Below are positions 1 to 28,246 of a stretch of DNA of 64,000 bases, piece after piece; the stretch's first letter is position 1; the number at the start of each line of letters is the position of its first letter. Source of the DNA: Marinirhabdus gelatinilytica (lineage in GTDB: Bacteria; Bacteroidota; Bacteroidia; Flavobacteriales; Flavobacteriaceae); assembly GCF_003353425.1 (NCBI RefSeq), contig NZ_QRAO01000004.1, positions 1 to 64,000 on the forward strand, read 5' to 3'. Made by a program: the position numbers and the translations under genes. The notes below the pieces were generated by a model. That model did not search any database. It saw only the letters and a list, made by a program, of their open reading frames with translations, and was not told the DNA's origin.

Positions 1-348
1 ACAGACCTCACCCAGGGGGACTATACCTTCAGGAGCAACAAGGCGAACCAGGACCGCAGGTTCACGGTGCTCTTCGAGCGCGACCCACAGCTGGGCACGG
101 GTGATATAGGAGCAGGGGACATAGCGGTATATCCCAACCCCACCAGCGGGACGCTTCACATCGTGGGCACGACCGTTGGCCTGGACTCCATCAGGGTGTA
201 CGATGTGCTGGGCCGTGCAGTGGTGCAGGAGGATCTTGGCGGGGCACTGGGCCACCAGCTGGATATGTCCGGCCTTGGGGCTGCGGTGTACTTCGTGGAG
301 ATAACTACCGAAAGAGGCAAGGTGACCAAGAAAGTGGTCAAGAAATAG
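1..348 (+). CDS. T9SS cargo protein, C-terminal end only (5' truncated by window)
   Basis: The frame is open from base 1 and ends at a TAG at 346-348, so only about the last 115 residues of a larger secreted protein are seen. The last 75 residues form a type A T9SS sorting domain: the YPNPTSG motif, then VYDVLGRAV, then GAAVYFVEI and a lysine-rich end (KKVVKK). Such domains are recognised by the type IX translocon and removed or anchored at the outer membrane. The GTG at 67 is an internal valine codon, not a start. The stretch is far more GC-rich than the rest of the window. The function of the full protein cannot be told from this piece. Confidence 0.85.
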   Translation, partial: TDLTQGDYTFRSNKANQDRRFTVLFERDPQLGTGDIGAGDIAVYPNPTSGTLHIVGTTVGLDSIRVYDVLGRAVVQEDLGGALGHQLDMSGLGAAVYFVEITTERGKVTKKVVKK

Positions 349-372
349 ACCTTATTTTGGAAGAGAAATACA

Positions 373-398
373 AGCGCCCTAGAGATAGGGCGCTTTCT
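373..398 (+). terminator. Rho-independent terminator after the T9SS cargo gene
   Basis: A perfect 8-bp stem AGCGCCCT/AGGGCGCT (373-380 with 387-394) with a 6-base loop is followed by TTCTTATT. It lies 24 bases past the stop codon and separates this gene from the next operon. Confidence 0.8.
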
Positions 399-435
399 TA
401 TTAAAATATCTTTTAAGATTTTGAGTTAGTAAAAG

Positions 436-1302
436 ATGAAACGTTTTGTTTTAGGGGTATTTTTTGTAGGGATTGTTGCTGTATTTTTCTTCACCAAAAA
501 AGGAAAAGTTGTAAAGAATGTAGCGTTAAGTTATGTTGTTGCTCCAGATTATATTCAAAAAGAGGGGGAGACAATTGCTTCGAGGGTTCTTGTTCCGGAA
601 ACTTTCAATAGAGTGCAGTACCTGGAAAAATCTTTTTCTAACTATATTCAGCAGTACGCTTTAAAGCCTTATGGTTCCAAGATTGTGAATTATGATGGCA
701 AAGATTATTTATATCAAAAGGGCCATGTGGGTATTTTGGAGGTTCCTGTTCCTTCAAATGGTCTTCAGCAATGTGCCGATGCACTCATCAGGTTACGTGC
801 GGAGTATCTTTGGGAGCAAAACCGAAAAGATGAGATTGGTTTTAATTTCACTTCGGGTCACTACTGTTCTTGGACTGAATACGCTAATGGGTATCGCCCA
901 AAAGTAAATGGTAACAAGGTTACCTTCAGCAAAACAGCACAAACGAATCATTCCAAAGAGAATTTTTATAAATATCTAAACCTGATATATACCTATTCTG
1001 GAACCCAATCATTGTACGACGAACTTCCAGAGGTCGCTTCGGTAAAAAATCTTGAGGTGGGCGATATGGTGGTGAAGCCTGGGTTTCCAGGACATATTGT
1101 AATGATTGCAGACAAGGCTACCAATGCCAACGGTGAAATTTTGTTTATTTTAGCGCAGGGAAATACACCAGCACAGAGCGTCCATGTACTCAAAAACCTA
1201 AACGATGCAACCATAAGCCCCTGGTACCATATAGAGAAGGACGCCTTTCTGGAAATCCCAACGTATTATTTTGACCAAACTAAATTTTTACGCTTCAAAT
1301 AA
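436..1302 (+). CDS. DUF4846-like secreted protein
   Basis: A 288-residue protein with an N-terminal hydrophobic segment (about residues 4-19) that fits a signal peptide or membrane anchor. The body resembles the DUF4846 family of Bacteroidota: QCADALIRLRAEYLW, FTSGHYCSWTEYA and the late VGDMVVKPGFPGHIVMI, a motif reminiscent of amidase-type or papain-like folds with a PGHIV segment. Its TAA shares one base with the ATG of the next gene (TAATG), so the two are probably translated together. Biochemical role unknown. The family name is from recall of the sequence pattern, not a search. Confidence 0.7.
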   Translation: MKRFVLGVFFVGIVAVFFFTKKGKVVKNVALSYVVAPDYIQKEGETIASRVLVPETFNRVQYLEKSFSNYIQQYALKPYGSKIVNYDGKDYLYQKGHVGILEVPVPSNGLQQCADALIRLRAEYLWEQNRKDEIGFNFTSGHYCSWTEYANGYRPKVNGNKVTFSKTAQTNHSKENFYKYLNLIYTYSGTQSLYDELPEVASVKNLEVGDMVVKPGFPGHIVMIADKATNANGEILFILAQGNTPAQSVHVLKNLNDATISPWYHIEKDAFLEIPTYYFDQTKFLRFK

Positions 1303-1664
1303 TGGCATTACCCCTTACCGAACAAGAACTACATAACCTTGCTATGAACATAGTGGGCAAGGACCTTGAGGATAAAGGATTTGAGTTTTTGGGAGTCAAT
1401 TCAAAATTGAAGAAAGATCCGCAGTTTGTTGCATTGAAAAACAAAGACCTACATTTTGTAATTGTGAGGGCTGTACGGTATCCACAAGATGCTAATGTGT
1501 ACGATCCTGTCCTGATGCAGACTATGAAGGAGCACGCCGATAAATTTGAAGCGAAAACCTATTATGCTGGCGTTGGCCTGGGCCACGGGACAGACTATGC
1601 AAAACCAGTGATAAAGGACGAGGATTACACTATGGTGTATAACGGCTTGCAGGAAATATCCTAA
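1302..1664 (+). CDS. Conserved flavobacterial 120-residue protein upstream of apbE
   Basis: A small soluble protein with no signal peptide or obvious catalytic motif. It starts on the last base of the preceding stop codon and ends 2 bases before apbE, so it belongs to a three-gene operon. In other flavobacteria I recall proteins of this type next to nqrF and apbE, sometimes labelled as an NADH-quinone reductase subunit F fragment. The sequence here shows no ferredoxin cysteines or FAD motif, so I would not call it NqrF. A helper role in flavin transfer or Na+-NQR assembly is inference from position only. Confidence 0.6.
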   Translation: MALPLTEQELHNLAMNIVGKDLEDKGFEFLGVNSKLKKDPQFVALKNKDLHFVIVRAVRYPQDANVYDPVLMQTMKEHADKFEAKTYYAGVGLGHGTDYAKPVIKDEDYTMVYNGLQEIS

Positions 1665-1666
1665 TT

Positions 1667-2707
1667 ATGAAATACTTCTCCATTTTCTTACTTTCGGTTT
1701 TTATGTTGGTCTCTTGTGCCGAAAAAACACCAGAAGCAACAGTGCTTCAGGGTGATGCTTTTGGTACAACCTATACCATTCAATACTTTTCCGAAAGAGG
1801 TTTTGATGCCGAAAGAGGTTTGGATTCTATCTTGGCGATGGTAAACAATTCGGTGAACACCTATATGCCCCAAAGTGATATATCCAAGATTAACCAAGGG
1901 GATACAACGGTTGTGGTAGATGAAATATTTAAAGAAGTGTATAAAATTTCTGAAAGAGTGTACACAAATTCTGAAGGTTATTTTGACCCCACTGTGGGAA
2001 CCTTGCGAAACGCCTATGGCTTTGGCGATATGGCCCCGGTCACCGAGATTGATAGTACGGTTTTAGATTCCCTACGTAGATATGTAGGGTTCAAAAAAGT
2101 AGCTTTATTGGAGAATGGGAAGATTGAAAAGCGGTATCCTGAAATATATTTCGACTTTAATGCGGTGGCAAAAGGCTACGGAATTGATAAAATAGGCCAG
2201 TTCTTGGAAGCTCAGGGAGTATCAAGTTATATTATAGAACTGGGTGGCGAACTACTGGCCAAAGGCAAAAACTTGAAAAAAGATCAATATTGGATAGCCG
2301 GTATAGAGGCAGTAGATTCTCAACTTGAAAACCGGAGCTACCTTGCCACTGTATATCTAAATAATACAGGCATGGCCTCTTCTGGAAATTATAGGAAGTT
2401 CAGGATCAACCCACGGACGGGCCAGAAATATGTGCACACCATAAACCCCCTTACTGGTTTTGCAGAAGAGAGCAACGTAACCAGTGCCACCGTCCTTGCG
2501 CCCACCTGCGCCCTTGCAGACGCCTATGCCACAGCGTTTATGGCGATGGGGCTGGAACGCTCTAAAAAATTATTGGAAGAGATTGAGGGTGTTGAAGCCT
2601 TCCTTACGTATTCTTCAGAAGAACTGGAAGGAGAGGAACAGGGCCAATTTATTACCGATGGTTTTAAAAAACAATTAGTGTCAAACCTTGCGGCAAACGG
2701 GGAGTAG
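1667..2707 (+). CDS. apbE: FAD:protein FMN transferase (ApbE), lipoprotein
   Basis: The 346-residue product starts with a lipoprotein signal (MLVSC, modified Cys about residue 17). ApbE features follow: QGDAFGTTYTIQYF near the N terminus, FDFNAVAKGYGID and IIELGGELLAKG in the centre, TGMASSGNYRKF and HTINPLTG later, and a Thr/Asp metal-site region at ATVLAPTCALADAYATAFMAMG. ApbE moves FMN from FAD onto Thr or Ser of targets such as the NqrC and RnfG subunits, outside the cytoplasmic membrane. No nqr or rnf genes are visible here; they may lie elsewhere. The last 27 bases overlap the convergent methyltransferase gene. Confidence 0.93.
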   Translation: MKYFSIFLLSVFMLVSCAEKTPEATVLQGDAFGTTYTIQYFSERGFDAERGLDSILAMVNNSVNTYMPQSDISKINQGDTTVVVDEIFKEVYKISERVYTNSEGYFDPTVGTLRNAYGFGDMAPVTEIDSTVLDSLRRYVGFKKVALLENGKIEKRYPEIYFDFNAVAKGYGIDKIGQFLEAQGVSSYIIELGGELLAKGKNLKKDQYWIAGIEAVDSQLENRSYLATVYLNNTGMASSGNYRKFRINPRTGQKYVHTINPLTGFAEESNVTSATVLAPTCALADAYATAFMAMGLERSKKLLEEIEGVEAFLTYSSEELEGEEQGQFITDGFKKQLVSNLAANGE

Positions 2708-3448
2708 TTCTCCTTTTGGGAGCCTGTATTTTTCAACTTCTTTTTCTGAAAGTTTTGCAGTGTAATCTACGCTATCTACTTTAAAACCTACGGATTGCAG
2801 CTTGTCAAAATAATCCATTCCGTATACACGTACATGGTCGTACTGTCCAAAAATAGCAGCCCGTTCTCTTGGGTCTGTAATGCTATTGTCCTCAAAAGTA
2901 GTGGTGCGGTTACGGTCGTAGGGAACTTGTACAATTGCAGTGCCATTTGGAGCAAGTACCCTGTACAATTCTTTCATGGCTTTTGTATCGTCCGGGATAT
3001 GCTCCAGCACGTGGTTACAGATCATAAAATCGAAACTATTGTCTTTAAAAGGAAGGTTGCAAATGTCTGCTTTTACATCGGCGATGGGTGAATTAAGATC
3101 TGTTGTGGTATAGGTAATGTTTTTCAATGTTCTGAAACGTTTCAAGAACGCTTGCTCTGGCGCAAAATGGAGCACCCGTAATTTTTCAGAAAAAAAGGAG
3201 GTTTCATTTTTAAGGTAGAGCCAAAAGAGCCTGTGCCGCTCTAGCGATAATGTGCCAGGCGCCAATACATTTTCACGCACTTTTTCGTAGCCATACGGCA
3301 GAAATTTCCGGTAGGAGTTGCCATCAATGGGATCGGTATATTTGTTGCCTCTAAGGAAAAAAGCAACAAAAGGACGTGCGAGGTAGCTTAACCTAATGAG
3401 CAACGGTCGTGGAATAGTGTTCAATGCCTTTTTAAAAATTTTGCTCAA
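2681..3448 (-). CDS. Class I SAM-dependent methyltransferase
   Basis: A 255-residue protein with a Methyltransf_11-type Rossmann core: VLHFAPEQAFLKRF stands for motif I, then ADICNLPFKDNSFDFMICNHVLEHIPDD (motifs II to post II) and ELYRVLAPNGTAIVQVPYD. The N-terminal 60 residues (IPRPLLIRLSYLARPF, RKFLPYGYEKVRENVL) match a flavobacterial subgroup of unknown substrate. It runs convergent to apbE and overlaps its 3' end. The methyl acceptor cannot be inferred. Confidence 0.8.
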   Translation of the reverse strand: MSKIFKKALNTIPRPLLIRLSYLARPFVAFFLRGNKYTDPIDGNSYRKFLPYGYEKVRENVLAPGTLSLERHRLFWLYLKNETSFFSEKLRVLHFAPEQAFLKRFRTLKNITYTTTDLNSPIADVKADICNLPFKDNSFDFMICNHVLEHIPDDTKAMKELYRVLAPNGTAIVQVPYDRNRTTTFEDNSITDPRERAAIFGQYDHVRVYGMDYFDKLQSVGFKVDSVDYTAKLSEKEVEKYRLPKGELLPVCRKV

Positions 3449-20084: not shown

Positions 20085-20726
20085 TTATTTTACCCTTGAA
20101 ATGGTAAGCCCATCCCTAATAGGTAGTAAGACGGTTTCCAGGCCAGGATGCTCCTTGAGCATTTTATTGTATTTTAAAAGTACTTTTGTATCCATATCGT
20201 CTTCTTTCAAGGGCTCAACAACTTTGCCGCTCCAAAGCACGTTATCACTTAAGATAATAGCTCCAGATCCCAACTTCGGAATGAGTAGCTCGAGATAATT
20301 TACATAGTTGTGCTTATCGGCATCTATAAAAACAAGGTCGAAATTTTCTTCCAGCTTCGGAATAATTTCCAATGCATTCCCCGTATGCTGAAAGATGTTG
20401 TCCTTGTACGCTGAAACATCAAAATATTTTTGTGCAAAATCGAACAACTCTTCATTAATATCAATAGTGTGCAACTGCCCATTTTGTTGAAGCCCTTCAG
20501 CCAAACACAGTGCCGAATACCCTGTGTAGGTTCCAATTTCCAAAATTCTTTTCGGGCGAATCAACTTGGAGAGCATACTCAGTACCCGTCCTTGTAAATG
20601 GCCACTCAACATTCTAGGAGCCAATACCTTTTGCCACGTCTCGCGAGATAATTTTTGCAATAATTCAGGTTCGGGTTGCGAGTGCTTTACTACGTAGTTT
20701 TCAATTTTTTCTGGCAGAAAATCCAT
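20085..20726 (-). CDS. Class I SAM-dependent O-methyltransferase
   Basis: A 213-residue enzyme of the catechol-O-methyltransferase-like family (Methyltransf_3): PKRILEIGTYTGYSALCLAEGL is motif I, followed by LHTIDINEELFDFAQKYF, FDLVFIDADKHNYVNYLELLIPKL with the metal-binding Asp, and ILSDNVLWSGKVV. Its ATG shares one base with the stop of the ACMS decarboxylase gene, so it is the last gene of the kynurenine operon. A role in methylating a catechol-like intermediate such as 3-hydroxykynurenine products is possible but not shown. Confidence 0.88.
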   Translation of the reverse strand: MDFLPEKIENYVVKHSQPEPELLQKLSRETWQKVLAPRMLSGHLQGRVLSMLSKLIRPKRILEIGTYTGYSALCLAEGLQQNGQLHTIDINEELFDFAQKYFDVSAYKDNIFQHTGNALEIIPKLEENFDLVFIDADKHNYVNYLELLIPKLGSGAIILSDNVLWSGKVVEPLKEDDMDTKVLLKYNKMLKEHPGLETVLLPIRDGLTISRVK

Positions 20727-21811
20727 TAAGCAGTTATTCTATCGATCAATTTTTTCTTGGCTTTTTCATCATCGCCACAGAGCCATTGCAACACATTATC
20801 TTCCCACATTTGGTCTGCATCGTCTTCAGTAATAATTTTACGGTCTTTTGCAAGGTCGAGTATTTTCCCTGGGTAGGAAGATTGTACAATGCTTTCCATC
20901 TCACCAAGCGGATATGGATCGTCCAGTCCCACCAAAACTTGTTTCACGCCTTGGTTTTTTACCAAAAGTTCCAACGAGCCTGTATCGTGAACCAAAGTGT
21001 CAAAAAATATGTTTTTGTGCCCAACAGACTTACGTGGGTGTGTTTTACCTTCAAAGAGATCTGGGCGGCCATCAAAACCTTGTATTCTTCTTCCCAGGTT
21101 CATTTGCGCCAATTGCCCGCCGTGGGCAAAGCAGGTACGCATTCCGGGATATTTGTCTGCATAACCGTTTAAGGTTAAAAAGTGGTAGGCATCGGCACAT
21201 TGTGCGAGCATCCAGATTAGGTGGAAACGCCAGGCCGTATTTTCAAGTTTTATAAATTTTTCGCCATCGTAGGGGTGTATCTCTACCGCTAGGTTGTATT
21301 TGCTGGCAAGTTCAAAAATGGGTTCGTTCTCTTCGTCAAAAATACAACGCCACGTACCTATGGTGTCCATATAGTGGGTTGGCAGGCACAACAATTGCAT
21401 ACCCAAAACTTCCACACAACGTTCAATCTCCCAAAGTGCCCCACGAATAAAGCCAGGGTGTATTACAAACCCACAGGTAAATTTTGATGGGTTTTCCTTC
21501 TGCACTTTCGCGTTAAAATCGTTTTGAAAGCGCAACGCCTGTTTCATCTCTTCCAGGCGGAGTCCATTTCCGTAGAGTTGGGACAGGTTCAGTACAACTG
21601 CGTGGTCAATCTTATATTTTTCCATCCATGCCAACTTTTCGTCAAGAAAAAAGCTGGAGTCTGTAACAGGACGGCTCCAGTCTTTCTGAAGCATATACTT
21701 TCTATCCTTGTCAACCCAAAAAATACCCTTATCCTGCATAAACTGTGGGATTTGCTCAGGATAGGGCAAGAGGTGCGAATGGCCGTTAATGCGGAGTTTT
21801 CTTTTTGTCAT
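20726..21811 (-). CDS. 2-amino-3-carboxymuconate-6-semialdehyde decarboxylase (amidohydrolase fold)
   Basis: A 361-residue zinc amidohydrolase. The metal-binding pattern NGHSHLLPYPEQ near the N terminus, AVEIHPYDGEKF and FAHGGQLAQ in the middle and VLVGLDDPYPLGEM near residue 300 fit the ACMSD/gamma-resorcylate decarboxylase group. Placed among kynurenine genes, it most likely decarboxylates ACMS to 2-aminomuconate semialdehyde and diverts flux from NAD synthesis to full degradation. An interspersed repeat (21825-21887) separates it from the SDR gene upstream; the O-methyltransferase overlaps its end. Confidence 0.88.
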   Translation of the reverse strand: MTKRKLRINGHSHLLPYPEQIPQFMQDKGIFWVDKDRKYMLQKDWSRPVTDSSFFLDEKLAWMEKYKIDHAVVLNLSQLYGNGLRLEEMKQALRFQNDFNAKVQKENPSKFTCGFVIHPGFIRGALWEIERCVEVLGMQLLCLPTHYMDTIGTWRCIFDEENEPIFELASKYNLAVEIHPYDGEKFIKLENTAWRFHLIWMLAQCADAYHFLTLNGYADKYPGMRTCFAHGGQLAQMNLGRRIQGFDGRPDLFEGKTHPRKSVGHKNIFFDTLVHDTGSLELLVKNQGVKQVLVGLDDPYPLGEMESIVQSSYPGKILDLAKDRKIITEDDADQMWEDNVLQWLCGDDEKAKKKLIDRITA

Positions 21812-21898: not shown

Positions 21899-22684
21899 TT
21901 ACAAACTTTTTGTCCTTCCACCATCTACCGGGAGGTTAATTCCATTGATATAGCTGGCAGCTTCCGTAGCCAGAAAGGCAACGGCATTGGCAACCTCACC
22001 AGGTTGTGCAAAACGTTTTGCGGGTACCAAGGATTGCATCCATTTGGAAGCTTCGTCTTTCGATTTTCCTGTGCGTTCAGCGGCTTTGTCAATAATGTTT
22101 TCCAATCTGTCTGTAGCGGTAAAGCCTGGCAGTACATTATTAACCGTAATTCCATATTGTCCTAATTCGTTGGCAAGGGTCTTGCTCCAGTTGGCCACGG
22201 CACCGCGAATGGTATTGCTCACTCCCAACCCGTCGATAGGCTGTTTTACCGATGTTGAAATAATATTGATGATCCTCCCGTAATCGGCTTCTTTCATTCC
22301 GGGCACCAATGCCTGTACCAAGATCTGGTTGCATACCAAGTGTTGTGAAAAAGCTTTTGTGAATTCTTCGGTATCGGCTTCAAAGATAGGGCCGCCCTTT
22401 GGACCACCTGTATTGTTTACCAAGATGTGCCATGTTTTTCGCTCCTTGGCAATGGCTACTTTTTCCTTCACTTCTTTGGGGTTGCTAAAATCTGCTACAA
22501 AATAGTTGTGTTTCTGTCCCTTGTCATGGTGTAGTTCAATTAAGGTCTCTTTCAGCTTTGCTTCATTTCTAGCCACTAGGGTAACGGTGGCTCCCATCTT
22601 TGCCAGTTGCTTTGCAACGGCTTTTCCAATGCCCGCGGTACTTCCGCAGACCAGTGCATTTTTGTTCGTTAAATCTATATTCAT
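21899..22684 (-). CDS. SDR-family protein without the YxxxK catalytic pair
   Basis: A 261-residue short-chain dehydrogenase/reductase fold. The dinucleotide motif is modified (VCGSTAGIG), then ILVNNTGGPKGG, RIINIISTSVKQPIDG and the C-terminal INLPVDGGRTKSL. Where classical SDRs have YSASK, this protein has GVSNTIRGAV, so both the catalytic Tyr and Lys are missing. A conserved SDR subgroup of this kind (BKR-like, imperfect motif and tetrad) is known, so this is probably not random decay. Its position between the ALDH and ACMSD genes suggests a role in aminomuconate breakdown. Confidence 0.8.
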   Translation of the reverse strand: MNIDLTNKNALVCGSTAGIGKAVAKQLAKMGATVTLVARNEAKLKETLIELHHDKGQKHNYFVADFSNPKEVKEKVAIAKERKTWHILVNNTGGPKGGPIFEADTEEFTKAFSQHLVCNQILVQALVPGMKEADYGRIINIISTSVKQPIDGLGVSNTIRGAVANWSKTLANELGQYGITVNNVLPGFTATDRLENIIDKAAERTGKSKDEASKWMQSLVPAKRFAQPGEVANAVAFLATEAASYINGINLPVDGGRTKSL

Positions 22685-22828: not shown

Positions 22829-24277
22829 TTAACCCTCATAAGTAATGCATACATTCTTCGGTTCCGTAAAAAACCGAAGTGCCTCAAAACCACCCTCACG
22901 ACCCACGCCACTGTCTTTCATGCCACCAAAAGGAGTTCGAAGGTCACGGTTTAGCCACGTGTTCACCCAAACAATTCCTGCCTCCAACTGTTTTGAAAGT
23001 AGCATGGTACGGTTAAGGTTATTGGTCCAGACGGTTGCAGAAAGTCCGTACTTTACATTATTGGCAAGTTGGAGGGCTTCTGCTTCATCCCTAAAAGTCA
23101 TTATGGTCACCACGGGCCCGAATACCTCTTCTTGCTGAATGCGACAGTTGTTGTCCTCAACTTCAATCACGGTGGGTTGCAGGTAGTAGCCGTTCTCAAA
23201 ATTTTTCACTGAAACCCTTTTGCCACCAAATAGTACTGTACCGCCTTCATTTTTGGCGATTTCAATATAATTCTCCACCTTTTCAAGGTGTTCTTTTGAA
23301 ACCAAGGCACCCAGGTTTGTGTCCTCATCAAACGGATTGCCAATCTTCAATTTCGAAACTTTTTCGACAAAGTCTTTTTTAAATCTGGATGCAATAGCTT
23401 CTTCAACATAAATCCTACTTCCGCAGAGACAAATCTGTCCCTGATTGGCAAAGGAGCTTTTTACCGTTGTAGCCAGCATTTTTTCATAATTGCAGTCTGC
23501 AAAGATAAGGTTGGGGTTTTTCCCGCCCAGTTCCAACGATAGCTTCTTGAACATTGGAGCGGCTGTGCGGGCAATGTGTTCGCCTGTTGTGGTACCACCG
23601 GTAAAACTTATGGCCTTTATGTGCTGATGGGCGACGATGGCCTGTCCTGTTTCGGGACCCGTACCGTGTACGATGTTGAGGACGCCTTTTGGCAGTCCAG
23701 CTTCGGTTAAAATTTCGCCCAATAGATAAGCTGTCATTGGGGTTACCTCACTGGGTTTTGCAACCACGCAGTTTCCAGCGGCAATGGCCGGAGCCACCTT
23801 CCAGGTGAAGAGATACAGTGGAAGATTCCAGGGCGAGATACAGCCTACAACACCTATGGGGCTGCGCATGGTGAAATTCATAGTATTTAACCCAACACTT
23901 TCGTGGGCTTCACTGGCAAATTGGGTAATGGCATTCCCAAAAAACCGAAAGTTTGCCGATGCCCTTGGGATATCTACTGCTCTTGCCAAACTAAAGGGTT
24001 TCCCATTATCCTTGGCTTCTGCTTCTGCAAGTTTGTCTAAGTTAGCTTCAATTAGATCGGCTATTCTCAGTAACATCTTACTCCGTTTCTCTAGGGTTGT
24101 ATTGCTCCAGCTGGGAAATGCTTCTTTAGCAGCTTGGTAAGCGTTTTCGACATCTTCCTGGGTGCTCTTTGCAATTTTTGAATATACCTCACCCGTACTG
24201 GGATTATAGTTGTCCAGCCATTCATCAGAGGAAGGTTCTTTACTTTCGCCGTCTATGTAATTTTTTATTTTTGTCAT
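22829..24277 (-). CDS. 2-aminomuconic semialdehyde dehydrogenase (ALDH family)
   Basis: A 482-residue NAD-dependent aldehyde dehydrogenase. Key regions are ISPWNLPLYLFTWKVAPAIAAGN, SFTGGTTTGEHIA, LELGGKNPNLIFADC with the general-base Glu, NQGQICLCGSRIYVEE with the catalytic Cys283, and EVFGPVVTIM. The family and context point to oxidation of 2-aminomuconate semialdehyde to 2-aminomuconate. The start ATG (24277-24275) overlaps the TGA of the Abi-alpha-like gene in an ATGA, so translation is coupled to that unrelated gene. Confidence 0.9.
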   Translation of the reverse strand: MTKIKNYIDGESKEPSSDEWLDNYNPSTGEVYSKIAKSTQEDVENAYQAAKEAFPSWSNTTLEKRSKMLLRIADLIEANLDKLAEAEAKDNGKPFSLARAVDIPRASANFRFFGNAITQFASEAHESVGLNTMNFTMRSPIGVVGCISPWNLPLYLFTWKVAPAIAAGNCVVAKPSEVTPMTAYLLGEILTEAGLPKGVLNIVHGTGPETGQAIVAHQHIKAISFTGGTTTGEHIARTAAPMFKKLSLELGGKNPNLIFADCNYEKMLATTVKSSFANQGQICLCGSRIYVEEAIASRFKKDFVEKVSKLKIGNPFDEDTNLGALVSKEHLEKVENYIEIAKNEGGTVLFGGKRVSVKNFENGYYLQPTVIEVEDNNCRIQQEEVFGPVVTIMTFRDEAEALQLANNVKYGLSATVWTNNLNRTMLLSKQLEAGIVWVNTWLNRDLRTPFGGMKDSGVGREGGFEALRFFTEPKNVCITYEG

Positions 24278-24954
24278 CTTGTATAACAGGCTTTAATAAA
24301 TTTCTCTCCAAATTCAGTCAACACAATCGTATCATCAGTGATCACTTCTTCTTGGGGTTCTAGTCTTCCACTGCTAAGAATTATAAATGCGGAATGATTA
24401 AATTGAATTATTTCTTTTAAAATATTTAACCTAATTAAATTACTTAATTCTTCAATATTAAAAGGTCTATCGAGTGAATAACCACTAATGTTAGACGTAG
24501 GTATTTTTATGTGGTTTTTATTGCCAACCGATATAAGGGTGTTGCAAAATTTTCTTATTTTTTTTAGTACAATAACATCCTCCGTTGATAGTTGGCTTAG
24601 AATTTTTGGAAATATAATTGAATTTAGATTTTTAGATGAATCAATATAATTTATTAAAAGATTTTCCCACATTTCATTTAAAAGAGGTTCTTCCTCTAAA
24701 GAAGCATTTTCTAATAGAGGTAACAATATTTTTAAAGGAACCTTTTTTGGCTTTATTTTTTTCTTTTTAATGTATTTTTCAACATTATTTAATAATCTAA
24801 TTTGATTTTTAAATCGCCAAACTCTAATATTGTCCGAAACTAAAAGCCCAACTTCTTCAACTGAAGGACCCATAAGTTTGTTCAAGAACTCTTTGGCTAA
24901 ATCTAGACCTTTTTCAAGAGTGGAAGATTTTAAATTTAACTGATTTTCTGACAT
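24274..24954 (-). CDS. Abi-alpha (DUF4393)-like protein inside the kynurenine operon
   Basis: A 226-residue protein very rich in Lys, Ile and Asn, encoded by DNA clearly more AT-rich than its neighbours. It matches my recall of the DUF4393/Abi-alpha pattern: an N-terminal helix, VGLLVSDNIRVWRFKNQIRLL, then KPKKVPLKILLPLLENASLEEEPLLNEMWENLLINYID. Later parts read as helix-turn-helix-like (IEELSNLIRLNIL and VLTEFGEKFIKACY). Abi-alpha proteins are linked to abortive infection against phage. It begins 14 bases after the deaminase stop and ends in an ATGA overlap with the dehydrogenase start. Signs of horizontal gain: composition and unrelated function. Confidence 0.75.
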   Translation of the reverse strand: MSENQLNLKSSTLEKGLDLAKEFLNKLMGPSVEEVGLLVSDNIRVWRFKNQIRLLNNVEKYIKKKKIKPKKVPLKILLPLLENASLEEEPLLNEMWENLLINYIDSSKNLNSIIFPKILSQLSTEDVIVLKKIRKFCNTLISVGNKNHIKIPTSNISGYSLDRPFNIEELSNLIRLNILKEIIQFNHSAFIILSSGRLEPQEEVITDDTIVLTEFGEKFIKACYTR

Positions 24955-24968
24955 ATATAAACTGATTA

Positions 24969-25400
24969 TTACTTACTGTTTACCGGTTTATAGGCCGTTA
25001 CCTTAATCTCGATCACCAGATGTGGGTGTGGCAATTGATGTACGGCAACGGTAGTACGAGCGGGTCCCGTTTCTTTACTGAAAAACTCACCGTACACTTG
25101 GTTGTACCCTCCAAAATCGTTCATATTTACCAAAAATGTAGATACCTCTACTACATCTTCCAGGGTTGCGTTTTCGGTAGCCAAGACATCTTTTATGTTG
25201 TTGAGAACGGCACGGGTCTGTTCTTTTATGTCCAGAAAAATAGTACCCATTTCGTCAATTTTATTGGCCCCGGCAATAGTATTGTCTGGCAATCGGGAGC
25301 TGGTACCGCTCAAGAACAGGAAATCTCCGGCTCTTTTTATATGCGGATATGCGCCCCGAGGCGTTGCTTTTCCTTTTACTACGTTGCTTTTTGTTTTCAT
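24969..25400 (-). CDS. RidA-family 2-aminomuconate deaminase
   Basis: A 143-residue YjgF/RidA/UK114 protein: [73 protein letters not shown] and the terminal [26 protein letters not shown] with the family Arg and Glu. In this operon it most likely removes ammonia from 2-aminomuconate, as in nitrobenzoate and tryptophan pathways. A long hairpin (25417-25478) lies directly upstream of its ATG. Confidence 0.88.
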
Positions 25401-25491: not shown

Positions 25492-26901
25492 CTACAAATT
25501 GCTAATCACATCATCATCGTGCAGAACTTCTATTGTTTCACGTTTCACGATGTCCAGCTTTTTACTGAGGTCCATGGATTCTGTTATTTTACCGTCGGCT
25601 ATCAGGTTTAGGATTGCCTTGTCCTGTGCGCGCCCTTTTTTCAAAGCTTCGGAATAGGTAATGTCCTCGTTAAAGGTAACCAAAGAATATTTACTGAAAT
25701 ATTCCTGTGGGAATTCTGCTTCAAAAGCGGTCTCTAGTTTACGTTTCTGCTGAAACAGAGGACTTGCGGTGTGCTCTTTCATTTCGTGGAAATTATCCAC
25801 AGCCAGATCGGCAATGGCATCGGTATCCTTTTTTCGGGTTTTTCCATATTCCTGAAATATGGTTTCCCAACTAGAATTCTCTTCGGAAGAAAAGCGATCC
25901 AAAACTTCATCAAATACTACCACATCTTCAAAACTGGCGTTCATTCCCTGCCCGTAAAAAGGAACTATCGCATGGGCTGCATCACCCATTAACAGGGTCT
26001 TTCCGTAAGCACTCCAAGGACTGCATTTAATGGTGCCGAGGGGTCCCGTTGGGTTGTTGAAAAACTCCTCTACGAGATTGGGCATCAGGGACACGGCATC
26101 GGGATATTCTTTCTTGAAATATTCCATGACCATTTTGGGTGTGGTCAAAGTATCAAAACAATAGTCACTGTTTGAGTAAGGGAGGAACAAGGTCACGGTA
26201 AAACTACCGTCTAAGTTAGGGAGCGCAATGAGCATATCTTCGCCACGTGGCCAGATGTGCAATGCGCCCTTTTCAGTTCGGTAGCCACCATCTTCGGCCT
26301 TGGGAATGGTAATTTCCTTGTAGCCATGTGTGAGCCATTCCTGTGAAAAACTGAACAGAAATTTTTTATGGTTGAACATACTCTTACGAACCACGGAGCC
26401 AGCACCATCCGTCCCCAAAATCACATCGCCTTCATAGCTTACCTCACCGCCGGACACATAATCTTTAAACGTGGCCGAGGCTTTTTGTAGATCCACACTT
26501 TTACATCCCTTGTTGAAGACTAGCTCAACATTTGGCATTTTCTCGGCTTCGTCCAACAATAACATATTGAGTCCCGGCCGAGAAATAGAATTGATGTATT
26601 CGTTTTCTCTACCGCTGTATTTGCTCAAAAATGTATTGCCTTCTTTGTCATGGATCATGCGTCCCAACATGGGGATGCACAGTTGGAGCGCTTTTTCTTC
26701 AACACCTGCTAAGCGTAACCCTTTCAATCCCCGATCGCTGAGAGCCAAGTTGATGGAACGCCCTGCGTCTTGTTCTTCTTTTCGTAAATCTGGCCGCTTT
26801 TCTACAAGCTTTACGGCATAGCCTCTTTGTGCCATTCGCAATGCGAGCAGGCTTCCGCAGAGTCCTGCGCCTATAATAAGTATGTTTTGGTTTTTATTCA
26901 A
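25492..26901 (-). CDS. kmo: Kynurenine 3-monooxygenase
   Basis: An FAD-dependent aromatic hydroxylase of about 469 residues converting kynurenine to 3-hydroxykynurenine. The FAD dinucleotide motif is NILIIGAGLCGSLLALRMAQRG, followed by AGRSINLALSDRGLKGLRLAG, the DG motif VILGTDGAGSVVRKSMF and LLMGDAAHAIVPFYGQGMNASFEDV. I favour the TTG at 26901 (protein NKNQNILIIGAG), as related proteins begin there; the ATG at 26937 and GTG at 26976 would translate the inverted-repeat hairpin at 26918-26967. It follows kynU in the operon. Confidence 0.92.
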   Translation of the reverse strand: MNKNQNILIIGAGLCGSLLALRMAQRGYAVKLVEKRPDLRKEEQDAGRSINLALSDRGLKGLRLAGVEEKALQLCIPMLGRMIHDKEGNTFLSKYSGRENEYINSISRPGLNMLLLDEAEKMPNVELVFNKGCKSVDLQKASATFKDYVSGGEVSYEGDVILGTDGAGSVVRKSMFNHKKFLFSFSQEWLTHGYKEITIPKAEDGGYRTEKGALHIWPRGEDMLIALPNLDGSFTVTLFLPYSNSDYCFDTLTTPKMVMEYFKKEYPDAVSLMPNLVEEFFNNPTGPLGTIKCSPWSAYGKTLLMGDAAHAIVPFYGQGMNASFEDVVVFDEVLDRFSSEENSSWETIFQEYGKTRKKDTDAIADLAVDNFHEMKEHTASPLFQQKRKLETAFEAEFPQEYFSKYSLVTFNEDITYSEALKKGRAQDKAILNLIADGKITESMDLSKKLDIVKRETIEVLHDDDVISNL

Positions 26902-26917
26902 AAGATATATATGGTCT

Positions 26918-26967
26918 AGCGCAGTCGAGACCTGCATTTTGATTAATATGAACCTCTCGACTGCGCT
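26918..26967. repeat. 13-bp inverted pair of REP-like units, kynU to kmo gap
   Basis: AGCGCAGTCGAGA (26918-26930) and TCTCGACTGCGCT (26955-26967) are exact reverse complements separated by 24 bases. Each copy is also a small palindrome of its own (GGTCTCGACTGCGCTAGACC on the minus strand at 26915-26934; CTCGActgcgcTCGAG at 26956-26971). A related unit lies at 37305-37332. Confidence 0.65.
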
Positions 26968-26983
26968 CGAGGGCACATGTTTA

Positions 26984-28246
26984 TTACAGTATTTTTTTTA
27001 ACCGCTGTACAAACTCCCAAACATCTTCAAAATTATTGTACAATGGTGCAGGGGCGACCCGTATTACATCTGGTTCGCGCCAATCACTTATTACACCAGC
27101 TTGGGTTAGTTTTGTGTGTAATGCTTTATCAGCATTTTTAACTTGTATGCTCAATTGGCAACCACGGTCCTCTTTGTTTCTGGGGGTGATGATGTTTATG
27201 TTCTCGTTGTTCAGTCCGTCCAGTAGATATTCTAAATAGCCTGTCAGTTTTTCAGATTTGCTCCTTACGTTCTCGAAACCTGCTTCCGCAAAAACATCAA
27301 GGCTTGCGCGTATGGCAGCCATGCTCAAAATTGGGGGGTTGCTAAGCTGCCATCCCTCAGCACCTTCGAGTGGGTCAAATTCATGGCGCATATTAAAACG
27401 CGTTTGTTTGTTATGTCCCCACCAGCCTGCGAAACGAGGTAAATCATTATTTTTTTCGTGCCTTTCATGTACAAAACAACCGCCCAAACTCCCTGGACCG
27501 CTATTTAAATACTTGTAGCTGCACCACACAGCAAAATCTGCGCCTGTATCATGCAGATTGGGTTGTATATTTCCAGCACCGTGCGCTAGGTCGAAACCAA
27601 CCATGGCTCCGTGTTTATGGCCTAGTTGAGTTATTTTTTTAAGCGGAAACGATTGTCCCGTGTAATAATTTGTACTTCCAATCATCAACAAGGCAACTTC
27701 GTCGCCTTGGGTTGCCATGATTCTTTCTAGGTCCTCAAAACGGCAAAGCTCTTCTCCCTGTCTGGGTTTCCAAAGGATCAATCCATCTTTTGGGTCGAGA
27801 CCGTGAAATTTTAGCTGGCTTTCCACCGCATACTTATCGCTTGGGAAAGCATCACTCTCTACAATAATTTTGTACCTGGTCTTTGTGGGTTTATAAAAAC
27901 TCACCATCATTAAATGGAGGTTGGTGGTGAGGGTATTCATTATTACCACTTCACTGGGTTTTGCGCCAACGATCACGGCCATGTTTTGTGTAAGGAACTC
28001 GTGGTAGGGAAGCCAAGGATTTTCGGCATCGGTATGGCCTTCTACACCGTGTTTTGCCCAATCATTCAATTCTTGCTGAATATACTCTTGTGTACGCTTG
28101 GGTTGTAACCCCAAGGAATTTCCGCAGAGATAGATTAATTGTTCACCTGCTGAATTTTTCGGGAATAAAAACTTGTCTCTAAAATGCTTTAAGGAATCCT
28201 TGGCATCACAGGATTGCGCATATTGTAAAGAGTTTTGATATTGCAT
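26984..28246 (-). CDS. kynU: Kynureninase
   Basis: A 420-residue PLP enzyme (fold type I) that cleaves kynurenine or 3-hydroxykynurenine to anthranilate or 3-hydroxyanthranilate plus alanine. Family sequence is clear: LIYLCGNSLGLQPKRT, MNTLTTNLHLMMVSFY, VGFDLAHGAGNIQPNLHDTGADFAVWCSYKYLNSGPGSLGG with the PLP Lys at about residue 245, and GWWGHNKQTRFNM. First gene of the minus-strand operon; a TATTTTTG box lies at 28280-28273 and two ATTCnGAAT palindromes lie further upstream. Confidence 0.97.
   Translation of the reverse strand: MQYQNSLQYAQSCDAKDSLKHFRDKFLFPKNSAGEQLIYLCGNSLGLQPKRTQEYIQQELNDWAKHGVEGHTDAENPWLPYHEFLTQNMAVIVGAKPSEVVIMNTLTTNLHLMMVSFYKPTKTRYKIIVESDAFPSDKYAVESQLKFHGLDPKDGLILWKPRQGEELCRFEDLERIMATQGDEVALLMIGSTNYYTGQSFPLKKITQLGHKHGAMVGFDLAHGAGNIQPNLHDTGADFAVWCSYKYLNSGPGSLGGCFVHERHEKNNDLPRFAGWWGHNKQTRFNMRHEFDPLEGAEGWQLSNPPILSMAAIRASLDVFAEAGFENVRSKSEKLTGYLEYLLDGLNNENINIITPRNKEDRGCQLSIQVKNADKALHTKLTQAGVISDWREPDVIRVAPAPLYNNFEDVWEFVQRLKKIL

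Follow-up and report, generated by a model that had tools for sequence, protein, structure and literature searches.

How does a gene of an abortive-infection family come to lie between two enzyme genes of tryptophan catabolism, and does its position there mean anything for defence? The question is raised by a locus of the marine bacterium Marinirhabdus gelatinilytica (Flavobacteriaceae) that we have analyzed in a window of 64,000 nucleotides, that is, the whole stretch of DNA under study. The gene is found within an operon that is read on the minus strand and has the following features; apart from kynureninase, the pathway names were assigned from protein family and gene order.

26984..28246, minus strand, kynureninase (KYNU_C, 97 bits)
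25492..26976, minus strand, FAD monooxygenase, probable kynurenine 3-monooxygenase (KMO), start codon uncertain
24969..25400, minus strand, RidA-family protein (Ribonuc_L-PSP, 92.5 bits), probable 2-aminomuconate deaminase
24955..24968, minus strand, 14-nt spacer from the RidA stop to the Abi_alpha start
24274..24954, minus strand, Abi_alpha (PF14337/DUF4393) gene, 226 aa, intact, ATG start, GC 0.274
24274..24277, minus strand, ATGA in which the TGA stop of Abi_alpha overlaps the ATG start of ALDH, read from the sequence
22829..24277, minus strand, aldehyde dehydrogenase (ALDH, 578.7 bits), probable 2-aminomuconic semialdehyde dehydrogenase
21899..22684, minus strand, short-chain dehydrogenase (SDR) of the operon (Pfam; gene order)
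20726..21811, minus strand, amidohydrolase, probable aminocarboxymuconate semialdehyde decarboxylase (Pfam; gene order)
20085..20726, minus strand, O-methyltransferase, end of the operon (Pfam; gene order)

The gene order of this operon is largely conserved across 40 other genomes of the family.

Identity and composition of the inserted gene

The first-pass annotation of this DNA had described a gene of 226 residues, AT-rich and on the same strand as its neighbours, placed 14 nt after the deaminase gene and sharing an ATGA with the dehydrogenase, and both the coordinates and the GC values agree with that description. Of the 60 mechanically called ORFs of the window (at least 100 aa), none has a lower GC, the next value being 0.359, and the third-position GC (GC3) of the gene is 0.199, compared with a median of 0.437 for the window ORFs. 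Measured in 500-base windows, the GC is about 0.27 in the gene versus 0.42-0.51 in the enzyme-coding flanks. By its composition the gene is foreign. The naming as an Abi-alpha (DUF4393)-like gene was also right, the Pfam family PF14337 matching the protein at 1.3e-25, scoring 91 bits where the cut-off is 29 and covering positions 3-196 of the 196 of the profile. Two models of the PADLOC candidate group PDC-S47 match it modestly (5.6e-10 and 6.6e-05, 37 and 21 bits), a group for which we know of no tested mechanism, and a scan of NCBIfam gave no family at 1e-5. In the core of the protein (SLEE...LQxxWA) the residues E87 and W96 are invariant across alignments of 12 and 15 sequences, and the window protein reads LNEMWEN at the position of the consensus LQDxWAN. 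Matches to sigma-70-like promoters at the gene were near chance (6 found, 4.3 expected), and one Bacteroidota-type pattern, allowing no mismatches, had no match anywhere near it; the gene may have a promoter of its own.

Absence from close relatives

None of the four other genomes of the genus has the gene; the best match in one of them (G004) has an E value of 0.009 and contains internal stop codons. Since all four congeners lack it, its presence in the operon would most simply reflect a recent acquisition of a single gene. The expectation that related operons would be free of the gene was therefore borne out, as was the adjacency of the deaminase and dehydrogenase genes in G003 (a junction of 41 nt) and G002 (38 nt), but not in G004 and G001, where an esterase gene lies between them. 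We considered the scenario of an esterase that was lost, in a single event, before the Abi_alpha gene was inserted. The esterase orthologue is absent from the genome of the window (G000), from G002 and from G003 (81% complete); the genus tree does not fix the branching, and the scenario was discarded.

The 99 other RidA-ALDH junctions measured in the family also lack the gene. With its foreign composition and the four congeners, this upholds the earlier claim of a captured gene. An ordinary, conserved member of the kynurenine pathway, which was also considered, would not be missing from all these places. The nearest records by RidA identity were a Flavobacteriaceae MAG (94%), uncultured Ulvibacter (91-93%) and other MAGs (91-92%), and there was no Abi match at the 80 RidA loci kept from such records, a set outside which the window's own record possibly falls. 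In Patiriisocius marinistellae, with a RidA 86% identical, the RidA-ALDH junction is 848 nt long and has an esterase match.

An integron-type gene cassette was tried as the form of the insert and rejected. The flanks of 14 nt and -4 nt leave no room for an attC-like repeat; direct repeats of at least 10 nt were not found across the insert, a length that leaves shorter target-site duplications possible.

A recent arrival might also be there by chance, bringing no benefit and being already on its way out. Such a neutral insertion would suit the absence from the four congeners and the strong compositional contrast, which speaks for little amelioration. The reading frame and both ends of the domain are intact, however, and both neighbouring genes were spared, and we consider this explanation unlikely.

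A porous operon

The RidA-ALDH gap was surveyed at 104 loci, including that of the window; one genome (G102) enters twice, once among the four loci that had no ALDH match on the strand, and 100 gaps were measured. Sixty-nine were of 150 nt or less and 31 were longer, the latter with an esterase match in 14 cases, other content in 16 and Abi_alpha in one, the window's own. Composition and spacing were analyzed in 98 of the 100 junctions (L108 was excluded, and one was dropped that had no start codon near the ALDH start), with the ALDH starts placed at the nearest in-frame start codon. Each of the 29 long gaps, that of the window among them, had a lower GC than the sequence on either side. For same-strand cargo, 22 of 26 ORFs had their stop at 15 nt or less from the ALDH start, again with the window among them, the exceptions being L072, L080, L096 and L120. 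Tight coupling is therefore usual at this junction, because unrelated cargo abuts the ALDH start in a similar way. RidA overlaps ALDH without any insert in 18 of the 69 short junctions. The first-pass annotation had taken the coupling to the pathway as meaningful for defence, a view that loses its footing when unrelated AT-rich genes share both the junction and the tight spacing. Many single, unrelated genes are accommodated by one operon of the family, and tight coupling alone should therefore be taken as no sign of a functional link.

The cargo at RidA-ALDH included the Pfam families esterase, GIY-YIG, DUF6090, phytanoyl-CoA dioxygenase and SdpI; among nine cargo proteins from this junction that were scanned, three had no family at E<=0.01 and one had a match only below its cut-off. 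A tenth, from the KMO-RidA junction, belongs to DUF1697. Two further kinds of cargo, IclR type (G122 and G303) and TPR, were assigned by visual inspection alone. The commonest resident is the putative esterase, assigned to PF00756 on the gene of G310 (L139) and found at L007, L008, L023, L026, L027, L030, L031, L032, L038, L047, L072, L074, L076 and L108, the copy in L108 being more distant and with a second gene before it. A GIY-YIG-type gene is present in the operon of 5 of 40 genomes of a sample that leans to cargo (L147, L151, L162, L168 and L175), located between RidA and ALDH in three and between KMO and RidA in two, with the Pfam assignment made on the L147 copy only. In G335 (L172:5030-7303) the RidA-ALDH junction is filled by three consecutive paralogues resembling the DUF6090 protein of L164.

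We also considered RidA-ALDH as a site-specific hotspot. Gaps larger than 250 nt, window included, were present in 15 of 41 cases at RidA-ALDH, 4 of 39 at kynureninase-KMO (where the gap in L138 is an alignment artefact, its ORF being the kynureninase end), 5 of 39 at KMO-RidA and 10 of 39 at ALDH-SDR. Further along, they were found in 3 of 29 at amidohydrolase-O-methyltransferase and in 25 of 37 at SDR-amidohydrolase, the latter mostly with a resident dioxygenase gene. The second batch, of 20 genomes, was skewed to cargo loci (5 of 6 taken from one locus set had gaps above 150 nt). In the first batch alone the values were 5/20 at RidA-ALDH, 2/19 at kynureninase-KMO, 1/19 at KMO-RidA and 5/18 at ALDH-SDR, and the comparison of RidA-ALDH with kynureninase-KMO and KMO-RidA pooled (3/38) gave p=0.11. 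A paired test was made over 59 of 60 loci, L108 being left out as deliberately chosen; the places had been taken mostly in list order with skips and, with the exception of L108, blind to their content. Of 57 RidA-ALDH junctions, 15 exceeded 250 nt. For KMO-RidA the count was 13 among 59, made up of gaps above 250 nt and of 10 loci with KMO unseen, which were counted as a large gap. The discordant cases were 11 versus 9 (p=0.82). Since neighbouring junctions take genes too and the paired test gave no difference, we do not regard RidA-ALDH as a hotspot. Porosity is a property of the whole operon, which takes up genes at several junctions.

Enrichment of defence genes in this cargo was considered as well, and it was not found. 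The 66 ORFs in gaps larger than 240 nt included the resident dioxygenase (23 copies) and probable artefacts (4), which were removed. PADLOC was applied to 38 of the remaining 39 and to the window Abi_alpha protein, and PDC-S47 was detected in the window protein alone. Weak matches to CARF3 and Csa3 (best 2.8e-4) were present in 2 and 1 members of the scanned set.

Predicted structure

The AlphaFold model of the Abi_alpha protein (15 sequences; pLDDT 78.8, pTM 0.70) predicts long N-terminal helices, a conserved core and a C-terminal part that resembles a winged helix. The best matches to solved structures by VIA-align reached a Z of 6.4 over 78 residues, a level that the tool rates as common, and many of them are DNA-binding regulators by title. 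Among the matches was 3h35 (Z 4.8, 83 residues, 4.4 A), a structure also mentioned in the Abi-alpha paper (PMC6356687). Searches of the PDB by sequence profile gave nothing at E<=1, and Foldseek with the model gave nothing at E<=0.001. A search of viral structures found one match at 1e-4, A0A291AUV8, an unnamed protein. No transmembrane stretch is suggested (the highest 19-residue hydropathy was 1.13). Our guess is that a protein with a helical N-terminal half and a C-terminal half of winged-helix type could act as a sensor or regulator.

The protein could accordingly have been recruited to regulate the operon locally, with no role in defence, as the modelled C-terminal half and the IclR-type proteins at the same junction in G122 and G303 might suggest. 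By the tool's own rating, however, a fold similarity of this level often arises by chance, and relatives on viral contigs that reach that far align over the same C-terminal part, making this highly improbable.

Relatives of the gene and their settings

Abi_alpha was found above the cut-off in 9 of 397 genomes of the family, among them the window's own genome with two copies, and in 8 of 395 genomes of the phylum, the window's own included. Its distribution is rare and patchy. The closest relatives found for the window protein are 36-47% identical, the top values holding over a partial length only. In a tree that left out G124, G507 and G587, the nearest were G340, of another genus of the same family, and G644, of another family, in a group with support that is not strong (89/87). 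Relatives were also found on 15 IMG/VR contigs and in 3 Vibrio phage records; PQ189339.1, the one of these that was examined, is a filamentous phage. A plasmid search gave no match, and of 109 pattern stretches in genome contigs none proved to be a relative.

The surroundings of the gene were scanned at 34 other places. The cellular ones were nine family loci (up to ~5 kb on each side; the gene of G124 is below the Pfam cut-off), the second copy of the window's genome and eight phylum loci (~1.5 kb); the viral ones were one phage and the 15 IMG/VR contigs (up to 3 kb; L197 and L198 are much alike). At a threshold of 1e-5 the seven operon proteins had no match in any of them, and the G340 gene, the near one in the tree, has no operon protein within ~5 kb. 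The sole match of the scan was to the esterase query, in G407 (L065:4759-6824), where Abi_alpha is located 86 nt upstream of an esterase with 32% identity to that of the RidA-ALDH slot; this is probably a coincidence. In the nine other loci above the cut-off (L059-L067), no same-strand gap is smaller than 86 nt, and the window copy is packed more tightly.

These data bear on the idea, advanced in the first-pass annotation, of a link between catabolism and immunity, in which the gene would be kept because its co-expression, or a change in tryptophan or kynurenine, serves the response to phage. The shared strand, the 14 nt and ATGA spacing, the intact ORF and the full-length domain would be expected from such a link. 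Abi_alpha occupies a single junction of the 100 measured, however, similarly spaced cargo is unrelated to it, and no match to the operon proteins was found at any of the 34 other places scanned. Tryptophan depletion as part of the response fares no better. In the kynurenine pathway the tryptophan-depleting step is that of tryptophan 2,3-dioxygenase, and the only match to this family in the genome is on another contig (C1:659446, 81.9 bits against a cut-off of 34.9); the operon bearing Abi_alpha therefore begins after that step. The only 3-hydroxyanthranilate dioxygenase match is likewise outside the operon (C1:546027). We regard the link as very unlikely. A stronger form, in which residence in the operon places the protein under the control of tryptophan catabolism, immunity rises with kynurenine breakdown and the output of ALDH needs ribosomes finishing Abi_alpha, is hardly credible. 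In 23 of the 40 relatives a putative gene for 3-hydroxyanthranilate dioxygenase, read by eye, is located between the SDR and the amidohydrolase.

Proposed origin and role

Building on the observed identity, foreign composition and spacing of the gene, its absence in relatives and the generality of the slot, we propose, with a probability of about 0.75, the capture of a solitary foreign Abi_alpha gene between two genes of the kynurenine operon, recent on the scale of the genus. Its transcription would probably come by read-through from the operon. The packing by 14 nt and an ATGA would be what extra genes commonly show in this porous operon and not a tie between defence and catabolism. The protein would most likely work alone, like the studied Abi_alpha protein, harming the infected cell and so limiting the spread of phage, a role that we infer by analogy. 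A possible promoter of its own, and a packing tighter than at the other Abi_alpha loci, speak against this proposal. Chance hitchhiking is favoured because unrelated genes so often occupy the same operon in relatives. The case is best explained as a known defence family that reached a new location by horizontal gain and operon hitchhiking. In the open-access literature, covered by titles and the starts of abstracts and with most subscription journals outside it, we found no link between kynurenine or tryptophan and phage defence. A defence-family gene that is directly flanked on either side by the enzyme genes of a housekeeping operon is the kind of case that surveys of defence islands would miss if they require clustered defence genes.

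The nearest studied system is the Abi-alpha of Enterococcus faecalis V583 prophage 6 (EF2833), which like the window gene is a single gene of DUF4393 (PF14337, full profile). It is carried by a prophage, whereas the window gene is part of an operon of metabolism whose enzyme genes are not interspersed with genes of a prophage. According to PMC6356687, EF2833 has 272 aa (226 in the window protein) and aborts infection with premature lysis. The DUF4393 proteins of the Vibrio phages (PQ189339.1 and two more records) show 26.3% identity over 92% of the query, the PQ189339.1 protein being phage-borne and the window gene being in a bacterial operon. The insertion of single foreign or orphan genes into operons is a general evolutionary pattern. 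The window gene is like such genes in being AT-rich, on the same strand and tightly packed, and differs in belonging to a defence family.

The second copy and repeat arrays

The second Abi_alpha gene of the window's genome is on a contig of 8.1 kb (L059, G000:C12) at 1336-2142 (189 bits), within a cassette-like array of AT-rich genes that have long repeats between them. The same repeats (97% over 415 nt) are also found at L209 (G000:C9), 1-3353, beside a tyrosine recombinase of 387 aa. The recombinase gave 208 bits with the integron-integrase model (cut-off 265) and 218 with NF040815 (cut-off 220), and since the model gives matches below the cut-off in 14 of 14 control genomes, the name integron integrase is unsure. 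In PMC9024848, few integrons are reported in Bacteroidetes. No repeats of the array type were seen around the Abi_alpha gene of L065. Within the family, Abi_alpha is among repeat-separated genes also in L061 (G346), in L068 (G124), where the gene is below the Pfam cut-off, and in L062 (G035), which has two copies of the repeat only. One spacer of L059 does not fold better than its shuffles (z 0.7) and two of L061 fold far better (z -5.7 and -4.2). Finally, in G437 (C11:256690-257807) two Abi_alpha paralogues are found as a tandem pair.
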